Part shown: piece by piece, positions 32,471 through 39,941 of the stretch
Numbering within the stretch: the first letter of the stretch is position 1
How the letters are laid out: each line of letters begins with the position of its first letter
Program-made: the position numbers and the translations under genes
The notes under the pieces: model-generated
What the model saw: only the letters and a program-made list of their open reading frames with translations
The model's database searches: none
Told to the model about the DNA's origin: nothing
Source of the DNA: Candidatus Hydrothermus pacificus
Lineage (GTDB): Bacteria; Hydrothermota; Hydrothermia; Hydrothermales; Hydrothermaceae
Assembly (NCBI GenBank): GCA_002011615.1
Contig: MTOH01000002.1
Coordinates: forward strand, 271,526 to 333,397
Length of the DNA stretch: 61,872 nt
Direction of reading: 5' to 3'

Positions 32471-35230
32471 TTACCTTTTCCTCAAAAACTTCGGTTTTAT
32501 CAGGAATACAAGCACCGGAAGGAAAAGGAGTGCAGAAAGAGAAGAGATTAGCATTGCTATGAATGTCATGAGCCCGAATCTTTTTATGGGTATGAGATTA
32601 CCGAAAATCAAAACCAGAAATCCGAGCCCGACCGATAGAGCATTTATTAAAACCGCTCTTCCTGTGGTTTTAAAAAGCATTTCAAATGCCTCTTCGTAAT
32701 TATTATCTTTTATCTCTTTTTTTAATCTTGACAGGACATGTATGGTGTAATCTATTCCTATGCCTATTACAATAGGAGCAATCATCACGGTAACCGTATC
32801 AAGCGGGATTTTTAAAAATCCGAGAAGACCGAAGTACAGGAGAATTGTAAAGGCAATGGGTATAATGGAGATAAGACCGCCTACCCCCGACCTCCATTCA
32901 ATTGATACAAGGACGAAGACAAGAGCCATAACCATGAAAAGGCTCTGAAACTGGCTTTTCAAAAGATTTTCATCAAGTCTTGTGTATATAAGAGGTAATC
33001 CTGAATGATAGAATTTCAATTTTACAAACTCTCCCTTTTTTAATTCTCTTTTATAGGGCAAAATCCATCTGTCTCCTGTGAATTCGTAGATGTAATCTTC
33101 AATACCTTCGGGCAAACCTTTTTTGAAATTTCTTATAGAATTTTTAACAAATCCTTCCCTTTTTGCCTCTTTTAAAATCTCTTTTACATCAGCACAGGTT
33201 GCCTCTATGTCCTCTTTATCATAATTTTTGAAATATTTTTCTAAAACCCTCTGAATGTCTTTTCCTTTTAAAATTTCCCTGATAATTCTTTCTCTCTTTT
33301 TAACATCTTCTATTTTTATAAAAGCCTCATCACTTTTAAAATATCCGTCAAGTTTTTCAAAGGCTATTTTTTTTGACAGATTTTCAAATTTTTTATTCTG
33401 TGAAAAAGAGTAGAGGAGTTTATAAATCCCTGATGTATCTTTTAAATCAAATACTTCACATATAATACGGGCATAGAACTTCACATATTCTTTGAATATC
33501 TTTTTCCTTTCAGCGGGATTTAATTCCCTGGAATCAACAATCAGGTAAGTAGTATCCAGTTTGTTTAAAATTTTTTCAATTTCTTGGGCAACTTCTCTGT
33601 TAGTCTTTGTTTTGCCTATTCCTGAAACCGCCTGTATAACAGCCTTTTTACCGTCTTTTGTTATCATCATATCAATCTGGGGCTGTCCTTCAAGTAGAAA
33701 ATATAGATTATCTATTTTTTCCTTTGACTCGGGTATTGAATTGTAATCCGTGAGAAGTTCGTTCATTTCTGCAATGAGGTCTGCAATGGACTGGGGATGA
33801 TTTATGTGAGGATTTTTTTCAAGGAGTTTTTCTACATATCTCATTATTTTTAAAACAAGAGGGTTTTTAATATCATCTGTCTCAAAAACTATATAGGAAG
33901 GACTGCTACCTCCAAATTTTTCTTTAACAAGTTCAGCATAAATCCTTACAGGGTTATTCCAGGGGAAATAGGAGAGCATGTCCACTTCTCTTGTTATCTT
34001 TAAAATCCCAAGAATACTCGTGATAGTGAGAATTAAACAAATTTTAATTACAAAATCCCTGCCTTTTTTTATGATTTTTGAAAATTTAACCATCATGGCT
34101 TCGGGCGGGAAGTCAAGTTCATATTTTTTGGAAGGACCGGTTTTTATAAAGGATAGAATTACAGGAATCAGGGTAAGGGTTAAAATCAGGGCGAATATAA
34201 CTCCTATGGAGGAAAATATTCCGAATTTCTTTATTACATCAAGTTGTGTAAATATCAATGATAAAAATCCGAAAAATGTTGTTATCCCTGCCATAAATAT
34301 TGGAACCCATATTTGATTCACAGTTTCTTTTATGTTTTTCTCTTTTTCTCCTTCCCTGAATTCCCTGTATTTGTTTAAAAGGTGGATGCCATAAGCAGAA
34401 CCCACAACCAGCAGAACAACAGGAAGTATGTTTGAGACTATGGAAAGAGGCACATTGAGATAACCCATAAGACCGAGCGTCCAGATGATGGAGATTAAAA
34501 CCACTGTGAGGGGCAAAAGAACTCCCTGCAGGTTTCTGAAACCGGAGAACAAAATAAGGGCGAGAACAATCCCTGCAAATGGTATTAATTTTATGACTTC
34601 CCTGCTTATGGTTTCATTGACAAATATCACAATGAAAGGAAAACCGCTGTAATAGACTTTAAAATCTCCCTTTTTTTTCTCCGTAATTTCTCTTATTTTT
34701 AATGCGGTTTTCTCCCTTTCCTTTTCCTTTGAAAATCTTATTATTATTGAAGCATATTTCCCATCCTCTGAAACTATTACACCCTTTAACCTCTTTTTTG
34801 ACATCACATAATTTTTTAAACTGTCATATTCTTCTTTTGTCTCTGGAATGTATCCTGCAGGAAGAAGTTTTCCGACCTCTATTCCTCCTTCTATTTTTTT
34901 AATGTCCATGATATCTGTGATGCTTATTACATTTGAAACTCCTTCAATCTTTTTGTACTCCTCTGTGAGTTCGTGAATTTTTCTGAAAGTTTTCTTATTA
35001 AAAACATCAGGGTTTCCTTTTAAAATGACCATTCCGAGCATGTTGCCTTCAAATTCATCACCTATTTTATCAAAGAGTTTTACATAGGGGTCCTGAGGTG
35101 GAAGTGCCTTTAAGACATCACCCTGAATTTGAAGTTTTAATGTTCCTGATGCAAAAAATAGAGTAAGTAGAACAATGAAAATTATATAAAAAACCCTGAT
35201 TCTGAGTAAAAAATCTATAATTTTTTTCAA
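32471..35230 (-). CDS. RND superfamily exporter, MMPL/SSD type
   Basis: 919 residues in two homologous halves, each with one transmembrane helix, a large periplasmic loop and five more helices (12 in total). Halves begin near IDFLLRIRVFYIIFIVLL and LLKSQFQSLFMVMALVFV. Hallmarks are VVLLVVGSAYGIHLLNKYRE and VIGIGIDYTIHVLSRLKKE, the conserved G-x-x-x-D/Y-type motifs of MMPL and HpnN-like exporters, and PIKRFGLMTFIAMLISSLSALLFLPVL. A long charged insertion occupies the first loop. It follows LolA-like, barrel and PhaR-like genes with 2-8-base gaps, suggesting transport of a lipid or hydrophobic compound to the outer membrane. Confidence 0.88.
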   Translation of the reverse strand: MKKIIDFLLRIRVFYIIFIVLLTLFFASGTLKLQIQGDVLKALPPQDPYVKLFDKIGDEFEGNMLGMVILKGNPDVFNKKTFRKIHELTEEYKKIEGVSNVISITDIMDIKKIEGGIEVGKLLPAGYIPETKEEYDSLKNYVMSKKRLKGVIVSEDGKYASIIIRFSKEKEREKTALKIREITEKKKGDFKVYYSGFPFIVIFVNETISREVIKLIPFAGIVLALILFSGFRNLQGVLLPLTVVLISIIWTLGLMGYLNVPLSIVSNILPVVLLVVGSAYGIHLLNKYREFREGEKEKNIKETVNQIWVPIFMAGITTFFGFLSLIFTQLDVIKKFGIFSSIGVIFALILTLTLIPVILSFIKTGPSKKYELDFPPEAMMVKFSKIIKKGRDFVIKICLILTITSILGILKITREVDMLSYFPWNNPVRIYAELVKEKFGGSSPSYIVFETDDIKNPLVLKIMRYVEKLLEKNPHINHPQSIADLIAEMNELLTDYNSIPESKEKIDNLYFLLEGQPQIDMMITKDGKKAVIQAVSGIGKTKTNREVAQEIEKILNKLDTTYLIVDSRELNPAERKKIFKEYVKFYARIICEVFDLKDTSGIYKLLYSFSQNKKFENLSKKIAFEKLDGYFKSDEAFIKIEDVKKRERIIREILKGKDIQRVLEKYFKNYDKEDIEATCADVKEILKEAKREGFVKNSIRNFKKGLPEGIEDYIYEFTGDRWILPYKRELKKGEFVKLKFYHSGLPLIYTRLDENLLKSQFQSLFMVMALVFVLVSIEWRSGVGGLISIIPIAFTILLYFGLLGFLKIPLDTVTVMIAPIVIGIGIDYTIHVLSRLKKEIKDNNYEEAFEMLFKTTGRAVLINALSVGLGFLVLIFGNLIPIKRFGLMTFIAMLISSLSALLFLPVLVFLIKPKFLRKR

Positions 35231-35232
35231 TT

Positions 35233-35874
35233 TTATTTAATCTTTTTAAGAATCTTTTTGAGGTCCTGTTTTATTTCCTTTAAATCTTCTTTGATTTCAT
35301 CCATTTCCTTTATCTTTTTTTCAGAAACCCCGATTTCCGAAAGAATATCCCTTATGTTGTTTTTCATCTGCTCTTCCAGTTCTTTCTTTGATGTTACTCC
35401 TATTTTTTTAAGGGCTTCATCAAGAACAGTTTTTATCTTTTCCTCGAGAAATTTCTCTCTTTCCCTTGCCGTTTCAATAAGCATATTTTTCAGTTCTTCT
35501 CCTTCTTTTTCGGTTATCTTTTTTCTGTCTATCAGATTTCTTACGATTTCTTTTGCTTTTTTCTCTGTAAGGGAGATGGCATCAATTGATGCAAGAAGCG
35601 AATTTTTTATAAATTCAACAACCGTTGACTTGCCCGATTTTATAAGTTCCCTTAAAATATAAGGGGCTGATGAAAATTCCTTTCTGTCCTTGACAATTTC
35701 CATCAGTATCTGAACAAGGGTTAAATCGATGATATCCTCTCCTGTTTCATTGTCAATAACCTGAAAGTCAATCCCATCTTTTATGTAATTTGCAAGTTCT
35801 GAAAGGGTTATCATCCTGGAAGCCTCTGTGTCGTATAACTTCCTGTTGGAATATTTTTTAATTAATCTTTTCAT
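35233..35874 (-). CDS. PhaR-type DNA-binding domain protein with phasin-like helical tail
   Basis: 213 residues. Residues 3-60 match the polyhydroxyalkanoate accumulation-regulator DNA-binding domain: IKKYSNRKLYDTEASRMITL, then VIDNETGEDIIDLTLVQIL. The remainder is a long amphipathic, charged coiled coil (85-213) like phasins or polar-granule proteins. PhaR proteins bind PHA granules and DNA to control phasins, yet no PHA synthase is in this window. It is encoded between an outer-membrane barrel and an MMPL exporter with 1-2-base spacing, so it may regulate or couple that export operon. Confidence 0.85.
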   Translation of the reverse strand: MKRLIKKYSNRKLYDTEASRMITLSELANYIKDGIDFQVIDNETGEDIIDLTLVQILMEIVKDRKEFSSAPYILRELIKSGKSTVVEFIKNSLLASIDAISLTEKKAKEIVRNLIDRKKITEKEGEELKNMLIETAREREKFLEEKIKTVLDEALKKIGVTSKKELEEQMKNNIRDILSEIGVSEKKIKEMDEIKEDLKEIKQDLKKILKKIK

Positions 35875-35875
35875 T

Positions 35876-37168
35876 TTAAAACTCCACCTTTAAATTTAAA
35901 TAAAACTGGTCAAAATCCTTCCATGAGCCGAGGAGGGTGCCTGTGGTGCCGTCAAGTATAATAGCCCCCATGTTTATTTCTACATTATCATGAGGCTTAT
36001 AGGAAATTTCCGGTACAACAGCACCTCCATAGTCTTCTTCTGCACCTTCCCCGATACACGCAATTCCTGTTTTTAACCTATCCCTTAAGAATTTTTTCTC
36101 AATTCTACCTACTAGATATTCGTGAAGTTCTTCTCCTTTTTCAAAGAAAAATCCGTGATTCCACTGGAGGTTTATATAGATTCCATTGGTAAATGTATAA
36201 TCAAATCCGATAGTTGATTTCAAATAAGGGTTTTCAAACTTTTCTGGCATAATATGGGAAGATAAAGGAAAAGGAAGTTTTATCTTGTCGATAGGCATGA
36301 AGTATCCCAATTCCCCCCATATTCCGATGGAATAGAGTTCTCCCGCAAAATCAAAACCTATCATTTGAATTCTGGGGAAAAAGTATTCAATTATGGTCCG
36401 TTCAACTCCTGAGGTGTCCGGATAGATGAGTATGTTTTTAATCAGGGGAATGTTATCAAATCCGTAGAAGTATGATAATGAAAAATCCCACTTAAAAAGC
36501 TTTCCGTAAATTTTTCCTGCAAACATTGAGTTTTTGAAATTTTTTGATTCCGGATATATTATAGTATCTTTTATTCCGGGAGATAAGGAAGGAGAAAAAG
36601 AGTCTATTACCGGAAGTCTTGCCTGAAATATCGGAAAGCCTTCGGGCAAAAGTGGGGGAACAAATTCTGGAATAAGTACGCCTTCAAAAGTAAATTCCTT
36701 GGGTAAATACAGGTCAAAAACAACTGCTTCTGAAGGCATTTTTTTGCCGAAATCAAAAGGGTTCTGCAGGTCATAAGGGTTTAAAATGTCTGTGGGATTA
36801 AGTTTATCCGCAGTTCCCCATGATATTCTCTGCTTTCCTATCTTGAGGTCAAGGTTATTAAATATAAATCCGTAAATAGTAAGGTATAGTTCCCATATAT
36901 GAGGTTTTACATTAAAAGAAGGGGTTGAGAGTTCTGAAATACTGAATGCACTATTCTGTGCCCATAATCTAAAAAGTAAAGAGCCCGTAAAATCATATTT
37001 TTCAGCGGTCTGTGAGAATTCAATTTCAAATTGATGAAACATGTAGGGGACGGGTTTTATACTGTCCGTGGAAAAGATGTAATAGAAATTGTTTAATTTT
37101 GCTTCACCTCCTATTTCAACAGAGTAGAGGAGCCCTGAGAAAATTAAAAGACTGAATAATTTTCTCAT
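35876..37168 (-). CDS. DUF1302-like outer-membrane protein
   Basis: 430 residues with a signal peptide (MRKLFSLLIFSGLLYS) and repeated amphipathic strands ending in an aromatic-rich, F-terminated strand (FYLNLKVEF), as expected for a large outer-membrane barrel. The diagnostic segment KIGKQRISWGTADKLNPTD...NPYDLQNPF (about 107-133) is characteristic of DUF1302-like proteins, which accompany LolA-like (DUF1329-like) and MMPL genes. The likely role is the outer-membrane step of an RND-driven lipid pathway. It lies 8 bases after the LolA-like gene. Confidence 0.8.
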   Translation of the reverse strand: MRKLFSLLIFSGLLYSVEIGGEAKLNNFYYIFSTDSIKPVPYMFHQFEIEFSQTAEKYDFTGSLLFRLWAQNSAFSISELSTPSFNVKPHIWELYLTIYGFIFNNLDLKIGKQRISWGTADKLNPTDILNPYDLQNPFDFGKKMPSEAVVFDLYLPKEFTFEGVLIPEFVPPLLPEGFPIFQARLPVIDSFSPSLSPGIKDTIIYPESKNFKNSMFAGKIYGKLFKWDFSLSYFYGFDNIPLIKNILIYPDTSGVERTIIEYFFPRIQMIGFDFAGELYSIGIWGELGYFMPIDKIKLPFPLSSHIMPEKFENPYLKSTIGFDYTFTNGIYINLQWNHGFFFEKGEELHEYLVGRIEKKFLRDRLKTGIACIGEGAEEDYGGAVVPEISYKPHDNVEINMGAIILDGTTGTLLGSWKDFDQFYLNLKVEF

Positions 37169-37176
37169 CTTTCCCC

Positions 37177-37881
37177 CTATTTTGCCCTTTTTAAATTTCT
37201 CTTTGTGAAAATCTTGTCAGAAAGCCCCACATCAACATCTTCTTTAATGGTTTGCATTATGGTTTTATGTTTATCCTTTACATTTTCCATCTCAACCTCT
37301 CCGATTACCCAGTAGCTTTTTATCTGATTGAATTTTCTGTTCCTCATTATTTTGAAAAAATTGCCTCCTTTATCAAAGAACTTTATTGAATCCGGAAGAA
37401 AGACCTTTTTGTTTACAAACATTATGAGTTTTGAATAATTGACATCAGACTCGGGCTTGGGTAAGAGTTCAAGAACATACTGATTCTCGTTTTCTTCAAG
37501 AATTTTTGCATTATAATTTTTTGTAAACTCACTTTTTGCAAAGTCATTGTATGAAAAATCTGTTCCCATAAAAGGCTCGTTTTTAACATGAGATGCAATC
37601 CTCCTTATTTTCTTAAAAGCAGGCAGGTAAAGATAAAGTTCATTATCCGAAAGCACGAGAAATCCCACACCCTTTACATCCGCAGGGGCTCTGAAGACAA
37701 AGAGTTTTTTGTGCTTTCCCTTCATCCAGAACTTCATCTCTCTCTCCTTTTGAGAACCGTCAGATTCAACCAGAATCATCTTTACTTCAGAAACCCTGTC
37801 CTCTGGGGCATTGTAGGTATCCTCAACCTTTTTTAAAATCTCATTCCCTGTAAGCATTAAAAGTGCAAGAACAAAATTCAT
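37177..37881 (-). CDS. Outer-membrane lipoprotein-sorting (LolA-like) protein
   Basis: 234 residues with a short signal-like N terminus (MNFVLALLMLTG). It then follows the LolA_like family pattern: DGSQKEREMKFWMKGKHKKLFVFRAP, GVGFLVLSDNELYLYLPAFKKIRRI, MGTDFSYNDF, and late Tyr-Trp strands. Such proteins have a LolA/LppX half-barrel that carries lipid through the periplasm and are encoded with MMPL exporters. It is the first gene of the operon, with AAAAGGAGG before its ATG and a strong promoter about 200 bases upstream. Confidence 0.85.
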   Translation of the reverse strand: MNFVLALLMLTGNEILKKVEDTYNAPEDRVSEVKMILVESDGSQKEREMKFWMKGKHKKLFVFRAPADVKGVGFLVLSDNELYLYLPAFKKIRRIASHVKNEPFMGTDFSYNDFAKSEFTKNYNAKILEENENQYVLELLPKPESDVNYSKLIMFVNKKVFLPDSIKFFDKGGNFFKIMRNRKFNQIKSYWVIGEVEMENVKDKHKTIMQTIKEDVDVGLSDKIFTKRNLKRAK

Positions 37882-37928
37882 TCTAAAAACCTCCTTTTAT
37901 TCAAAACGGGAGTATGGGGAAAGAGTAG

Positions 37929-37995
37929 AAGGAAAATTTCCACACCCTTAACCCCATACCCCTCCTTCCCCGGGAGGAAGGAAAGTTTGCTTCGC
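37929..37995 (-). promoter_or_regulatory. Structured leader of the LolA-like/MMPL operon
   Basis: The roughly 200-base leader contains two adjacent hairpins: CCTTCC/GGAAGG around CCGGGA (about 37963-37980) and TTGC-TTC-GCAA (about 37988-37998). A pyrimidine-rich ACCCCATACCCCT stretch lies beside them. They may be a repeat-type palindrome or an attenuator-like structure. No recognised riboswitch was seen. Confidence 0.3.
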
Positions 37996-38087
37996 AAGCA
38001 CCAATGGTTAATGGTTTGTACTTAATTATTTTATTTTTACACTTCGCATCATTATTACGCATCAGTTTTACGCAATGCATAATTAAT

Positions 38088-38116
38088 ATAATACGGGAAA
38101 ATTTTGAATTTGTCAA
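38088..38116 (-). promoter_or_regulatory. Promoter of the LolA-like/DUF1302/PhaR/MMPL operon
   Basis: Minus strand TTGACA (38116-38111) and TATTAT (38093-38088) with a 17-base spacer. It lies just beyond the stop of the broken hepT gene and about 200 bases before the first gene of the export operon. Confidence 0.75.
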
Positions 38117-38992: not shown

Positions 38993-39941
38993 TCATAAAG
39001 AAAACAGAAATCCCTTTTCAAACAAGTTCCTTATCATAAGCAAATATGCTGAAAATTCCTCCTGTATGCAAAAATAAGATTTTTTTAATTCTTTTGATTC
39101 ATTGAGCATTCCGTAAAAGGCTTTGCCCGTATAAACAGGGTCGAGAATTATGCCATATTTTGCCATCTCTTTAATTGTTTCAATTTCCTCTTCATAGGGG
39201 ATTGCATATCCTGCTCCTATATAACCTTCTATTAATTCAATATCTTCTGGAGTTACACTCACAGGAAGCCCGTATTTCTCTATTGCCCTTTCACAAATTT
39301 GCTCTATTTTCCCTTTGAAGAATTTTATTGAATCGCAGACAATTATGCCTATGAGCCTAACATTCACATTTAAAAGTTTTTTACCCAGCAGAAGACCTGC
39401 ATATGTTCCTCCGGAGCCCACGGCAAGATAAATAGCCTCTATATTTTCTTTTTCAACAAATTCTTTAATCTCTTCCATCCGGAATTATATAGGGTTTCCT
39501 GCCCTGTCTTTTCAATTCCTCTGCAAGTTCTTCCATTATCTCATTTATTCTTTCCTTATATTCTTCACAGGTGACATATTTTATCTTTGCTGACATGAGT
39601 TTATCCAGCAGGAGGTTTCCCTGAGGAATTTCTGGAGGAATGCCTCTTAAAACAAGGTGAACATCAAAATCCGTTTTTCTACCTGCATATACGGTTGCCC
39701 TGCAATGGTTGGATTGTATTCCACCACAGGTTATAAGTGCATCACATCCTTTTTCTTTTGCATCGGAAAGACAGTATTCAAGTTTCCTTATCTTGTTCCC
39801 GGATGATATAAAACCTGTATAGTCATCCCTTTTTATATATATTTTCACAGAGTGAGGAAAATTTTCCAGGAGTTCAATGGGAGTGGGCTTCCATGCAAGA
39901 TTTATCTTCCTCTTTTTTAATTTTTCCACTATCTCTTTCAT
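38993..39941 (-). pseudogene. D-cysteine desulfhydrase/ACC deaminase-like PLP enzyme, disrupted
   Basis: Two frames together cover one PLP fold-type II enzyme. The first (39941-39465) has WKPTPIELL, the PLP-lysine segment SGNKIRKLEY and GGIQSNHCRA, and runs out at KPYIIPDGRD. The second (39478-38993) starts in the following domain with EEIKEF...AIYLAVGSGGTYAGLLLG and continues to LDPVYTGKAF. Between them the family normally has GGSNxxGxxGY of about a dozen residues, which is missing, so a short deletion shifted the frame. The 5' end lacks a ribosome site. The product cannot be a normal enzyme as read. Confidence 0.8.

Follow-up and report, generated by a model that had tools for sequence, protein, structure and literature searches.

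The operon described here probably places an exporter related to AmeABCD under the control of a PhaR-family repressor whose tail is phasin-like and whose ligand is hydrophobic but not PHA, and we put the probability of this reading at about 0.6. It lies in the window, the whole 61,872-nucleotide stretch of DNA that was analysed, on contig 2 of a WOR-3 (candidate division) genome that measures 2.06 Mb and is 95% complete. The kind of pump is known and so is the family of the regulator; the combination and its setting are new, as are the predicted tandem PhaR-type boxes that follow the -10 element in four PhaR-exporter cassettes. What can be read from the sequence is the gene content, its recurrence, a regulator gene in the slot otherwise held by TetR, candidate operators at the promoter and the absence of a recognisable PHA synthase.

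The exporter operon and its known relatives

The features of the operon are as follows.

38088..38116, minus strand: sigma-70-like promoter, TTGACA-17-TATTAT, 11/12 consensus positions
38071..38079, minus strand: PhaR-type box 1, TGCATTGCG, a perfect YGCRNYGCR
38058..38066, minus strand: PhaR-type box 2, ACTGATGCG, right half-site TGCG perfect, left degenerate, 5/8; 13-bp period
38045..38053, minus strand: PhaR-type box 3, AATGATGCG, right half-site perfect, left degenerate, 5/8; 13-bp period
37177..37881, minus strand: LolA_like periplasmic carrier, 234 aa (PF17131)
35876..37168, minus strand: DUF1302 protein, 430 aa, presumed outer-membrane component, AmeA-like (PF06980)
35233..35874, minus strand: PhaR-family regulator, 213 aa (PF07879)
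32471..35230, minus strand: MMPL/HAE3-type inner-membrane pump, 919 aa, TTG start (PF03176, TIGR00921)

The four genes are tightly packed, with gaps of 8, 1 and 2 nt between ORFs, the first three have plausible ribosome sites, and the promoter at 38116-38088 is the joint-best sigma-70 match in the region (11/12). This agrees with the initial annotation, which described four genes spaced by 1-8 bases under one strong promoter; its extent of 32471-37881 was correct for the genes but left out the promoter and operator region (38045-38116). The leader between the operator and the first start codon (37882-38044) is about 160 nt long, whereas the leaders of the other three cassettes are under 50 nt; it contains a G+C-rich low-complexity stretch (37945-37985) that is perhaps an inserted repeat. 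Elsewhere in the window, two overlapping minus-strand ORFs of 158 and 161 aa (38993-39941) resemble by eye the halves of one PLP-dependent desulfhydrase/deaminase, a gene that a frameshift or an assembly error may have broken in two.

The LolA_like protein matches PF17131 (E=6e-54) and, weakly, DUF1329 (24.0 bits, cut-off 23.1), scores that place it with the DUF1329/LolA-superfamily periplasmic proteins of AmeABCD-type exporters; its solved relatives include 9tp6 (E=4e-25) and 3bk5 (E=1.5e-22). The DUF1302 protein scores above the PF06980 cut-off (E=1.5e-7), a domain that seven of nine relatives match too, and it ends in a C-terminal Phe. We presume it to be an outer-membrane barrel; a profile search found no PDB relative, and a structure model built from two sequences was useless (pLDDT 27). 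The pump matches MMPL (PF03176, E=4.1e-49), has about 12-13 membrane segments by hydropathy and resembles the MmpL4/5, Patched and HpnN structures. Its best NCBIfam match is HAE3 (TIGR00921, E=5e-91), at 305.9 bits and under the cut-off of 351.9. The hopanoid and sterol RND transporters HpnN and BstA belong to the same superfamily of lipid-moving pumps, but the pump here falls far under both equivalog cut-offs.

The characterised relative is AmeABCD of Castellaniella defragrans, an exporter of apolar monoterpenes that combines in one operon a DUF1302 protein, a LolA-superfamily periplasmic protein and an HAE3 pump, the last corresponding to the HAE3-type pump here (PMC6394551). Export of apolar compounds, known for AmeABCD, would be the corresponding function here. 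The two systems differ in that AmeB is a DUF1329 protein whereas its counterpart here is PF17131 with a weak DUF1329 match, in that an AmeC-like (COG4447) protein is missing from the operon, which has no fourth periplasmic gene, and in the PhaR-type gene, which has not been described with ameABCD. The MMPL, LolA_like and DUF1302 genes are clustered in dozens of WOR-3 genomes, mostly in that order with LolA_like second, and MMPL is often preceded by a gene of about 190-210 aa that was TetR wherever it was tested against Pfam. The same genome has a paralogous TetR-MMPL-LolA-DUF1302 operon on contig 8 (G000:C8, L254 4983-9852), at which we found no PhaR-type boxes. These TetR modules have the same three transport proteins and a regulator gene directly 5' of MMPL; they differ in having TetR instead of PhaR, usually another gene order and no PhaR-type boxes. 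Because the trio is widespread in the phylum and has a characterised relative in AmeABCD (PMC6394551), the transport part is of a known kind, and the earlier suggestion of an undescribed export system is not supported. The pump trio is an AmeABCD-like module normally controlled by TetR, and only the regulator is unusual; a PhaR-family protein would here replace the usual TetR.

Recurrence of the PhaR-exporter cassette

Twenty-five of 147 WOR-3 genomes have a PF07879 match, and most PF07879 genes of the phylum sit outside the trio. Recurrence elsewhere had been proposed as the check on this arrangement, and a PhaR-domain gene does accompany DUF1302, LolA_like and MMPL genes in three genomes besides that of the window (G002, G076 and G016). 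The order is LolA-DUF1302-PhaR-MMPL in the window, G002 and G076 and PhaR-MMPL-LolA-DUF1302 in G016, with the PhaR-type gene in all four directly 5' of MMPL, the TetR position in other trios. In G128 and G121 the genes share a strand but are more loosely arranged, separated by radical SAM and CrtC-like genes. In the MMPL tree the four PhaR-cassette pumps cluster with that of G059 (92/92). In the PhaR tree, a quick tree with SH-aLRT support only, the window groups with G002 and G076 (88), and G016 branches with an unlinked gene of G047 (95), apart from the other three; the PhaR-type gene has therefore probably been recruited to the trio twice, as judged from these branchings.

The regulator and its candidate operators

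The DNA-binding domain of the regulator is a well-conserved PHB_acc_N (residues 4-60; PF07879, 81.8 bits against a cut-off of 25, E=3.6e-23), and this is the one PF07879 gene in the window's genome. Against the PhaR equivalog TIGR01848 the protein scores 70.1 bits, under the cut-off of 109.45. In its AlphaFold model (mean pLDDT 88) the N-domain is compact and long helices extend from residue 49 to 212; no PDB relative was found by sequence or by fold. The long amphipathic tail of the initial annotation survives as a predicted long helical tail (pLDDT 88), but its likeness to phasins is weak, the match to PF05597 (E=0.004, 17.7 bits) lying under the cut-off of 28.8. The tail also aligns with a WOR-3 phasin-family protein at locus L088 (28% identity over 86 columns, E=2e-5), which itself matches PF05597 with E=2e-13. 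We found no literature on PhaR or phasins in WOR-3.

The published PhaR motif of S. meliloti is YGCRNYGCR (PMC12542648), with which the R. eutropha PhaR site YTKNTGCRNYGCANMAR, one copy of which lies near the phaP1 start, agrees (PMC12542648, PMC12849132). Predicted sites of this form are present at the promoters of all four PhaR cassettes, each of which matches sigma-70 at 11 or 12 of 12 positions. They form tandem arrays with a 13-bp period that start 2-8 nt downstream of the -10 element.

Window, after -10: TGCATTGCGTAAAACTGATGCGTAATAATGATGCG, YGCRNYGCR form
G002, after -10: TGCAATGCGTAAATTCAATGCG, YGCRNYGCR form
G016, after -10: TGCAATGCATAAATGCAATGCACAAGTGCAGTGCG, YGCRNYGCR form
G076, after -10: TGCAATGTGTAAATACAGTACATTAAAGCATTGCAGTAAGGCACTGCA, YGCRNYGCR form

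Against 3000 random 250-bp segments, the three-box scores at period 13 gave p = 0.01, 0.01, 0.0007 and 0.0007 for the four promoters, values that are optimistic because the period was noticed first and then tested on the same sequences. Periods of 11, 12, 14 and 15 gave nothing comparable except a two-box value of 0.03 at 15 for the window, and about 30 other trio promoters had no comparable tandem boxes. In a test with the published motif, the choice of which owed nothing to these genes, 9 of 26 PhaR-type genes had a perfect box in the 80 bp upstream, compared with 4 of 310 other genes at the same loci (p=2.5e-11, which is optimistic because related genomes are not independent). Outside the phylum the enrichment is weaker, with a box within 150 bp of 26/82 PhaR-type genes and 108/1000 other genes. 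Boxes precede PhaR-type genes in Chloroflexota, Acidobacteriota, Rokubacteria and others (among them L130, L136, L142, L149, L153, L165 and L193), and their presence in other phyla suggests that PhaR-type autoregulation is old. A palindrome in the window's leader, TTGCGAAGCAA (37987-37997), fits TGCN3GCA and was not counted as a box because it does not match YGCRNYGCR.

YGCRNYGCRNAA has 12 occurrences in the window's genome, and only the one at the operon promoter looks intergenic; a further site, on contig 8, falls within a doubtful ORF and looks like coding sequence on the opposite strand. Trio promoters in genomes with an unlinked PhaR-type gene have no boxes. Because of this, and because most PF07879 genes lie elsewhere, the tie between PhaR and the exporter appears to be local. 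The regulator most likely controls its own operon. Its action at the operon promoter, which had been proposed earlier, is supported by the candidate boxes immediately after the -10 element.

PhaR/AniA proteins of Sinorhizobium, Ralstonia and Paracoccus share the PHB_acc_N domain and YGCRNYGCR operators with the WOR-3 regulator, and the position of the site at the transcription start is as at phaP1 (PMC12542648, PMC12849132). The WOR-3 protein differs from them in belonging to a phylum without PHA synthase, in scoring under the equivalog cut-off, in having a phasin-like tail rather than a PHB_acc tail, in the tandem 13-bp array and in being encoded inside an exporter operon. PhaR is titrated off DNA by a hydrophobic ligand (PMC12542648), and by analogy we propose that the protein would repress its own operon by binding the tandem boxes that lie at the operon's start, that its helical tail would bind a lipid or a hydrophobic surface other than PHA, and that this ligand would draw the repressor off the DNA and so switch the exporter on. 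The cargo would probably be apolar and of a kind that accumulates in membranes, either an acyl lipid or another such compound. In favour of the repressor model we count the recurrence in the TetR slot in four genomes, the TetR paralogue, the boxes, the single PF07879 gene and single likely intergenic box site in the genome, the lack of a PHA synthase, the phasin-like tail, the phasin and acyl-lipid genes near related trios, the export of apolar compounds by AmeABCD and the titration of PhaR; against it we count boxes 2 and 3 of the window, perfect in one half-site only, the tail's score under the phasin cut-off, the box-free trio promoters of genomes with an unlinked PhaR-type gene, the location of the lipid genes outside this window and the ability of PhaR also to activate (PMC12849132).

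What the regulator may sense

Genes near related trios, outside this window, point indirectly to acyl lipids; those flanking the window cassette gave no clue to the cargo. Eight genomes, some of them close relatives, have both the trio and free-standing phasins, and in six of them the two are 2.4-15 kb apart; some of these loci also carry genes for PlsC acyltransferases, ACP, patatin and radical SAM proteins. The phasin-family proteins of 95 aa near the trio are encoded at L088 3021-3308, L090 3599-3889 and 5066-5353, and L095 2036-2326. Elsewhere in the phylum, PhaR-type genes adjoin genes for PlsC, ACP or patatin-like proteins, and in several genomes (L044, L048, L049, L052-L056) they adjoin look-alike radical SAM/SPASM proteins, possibly concerned with lipid or peptide modification; the one such neighbour that we checked had only a partial PDB match, to SkfB. 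A more specific proposal, which we advance tentatively and with the odds somewhat against it, is that a PHA-independent PhaR/phasin branch acts as a lipid-surface sensor, such that an unusual acyl lipid, as it accumulates, would titrate the phasin-tailed repressor off the tandem 13-bp operators and so induce the pump that moves that same lipid to the outer membrane.

The regulator could instead be a simple local repressor with a small soluble hydrophobic molecule as its ligand, much as TetR acts at the paralogous pump; its tail would then only oligomerise, and the pump would serve ordinary detoxification. The TetR position of its gene, the TetR-run paralogue in the same genome and the protection against monoterpenes that AmeABCD provides (PMC6394551) all fit such a repressor, but the PhaR proteins known so far respond to a hydrophobic surface (PMC12542648), the tail is similar to WOR-3 phasins, and related trios repeatedly have phasins and acyl-lipid genes nearby, so that we consider a soluble ligand rather unlikely. 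It is quite improbable that the tail is a structural phasin coating cargo or membrane near the pump and that DNA binding is vestigial: the length of the helical tail and the free-standing phasins near related trios are compatible with a coat, but the DNA-binding domain is well conserved and operators have been kept in four divergent promoters.

A genuine PHA regulator coupling PHA storage to envelope export would account for the PHB_acc_N domain and the PhaR-type operators, but we regard it as very improbable, given the TIGR01848 score and the searches for a synthase. PhaC_N (PF07167) was absent from the window's genome by profile search and from 147 of 147 WOR-3 genomes, an identical search does recover Caulobacter, and TIGR01836 gave three weak matches, all below cut-off. 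These searches speak against a hidden PHA pathway and extend the lack of phaC noted at first for this DNA to these 147 genomes of the phylum. Because the synthase is absent and the TIGR01848 cut-off is not reached, the regulator is assigned to the PhaR family with PhaR function only putative. A chance neighbour with no functional tie to the operon has a negligible likelihood and is largely refuted by the four genomes, two gene orders, two PhaR-tree branches and boxes at the operon promoter, even though the majority of the phylum's PF07879 genes are not at the trio and 79 loci from outside the phylum (from the best 80 of at least 567 relatives) showed no cassette. The gene is thus neither confined to this genome by chance nor a poorly kept extra copy alongside a phaC-phaR pair elsewhere, these being the two outcomes that the initial annotation had set against its own proposal.

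The PhaR family is usually taken as a mark of PHA storage. The presence of the same predicted DNA motif at an exporter operon in a phylum without PHA synthase would break the annotation rule that PhaR means PHA, and suggests that the family senses other lipids besides PHA. The operon offers a small one-operon model for what PhaR-type proteins sense in general, and if its regulator does prove to be a lipid-surface sensor, the control of PHA would be a special case within a more ancient means of sensing lipids.
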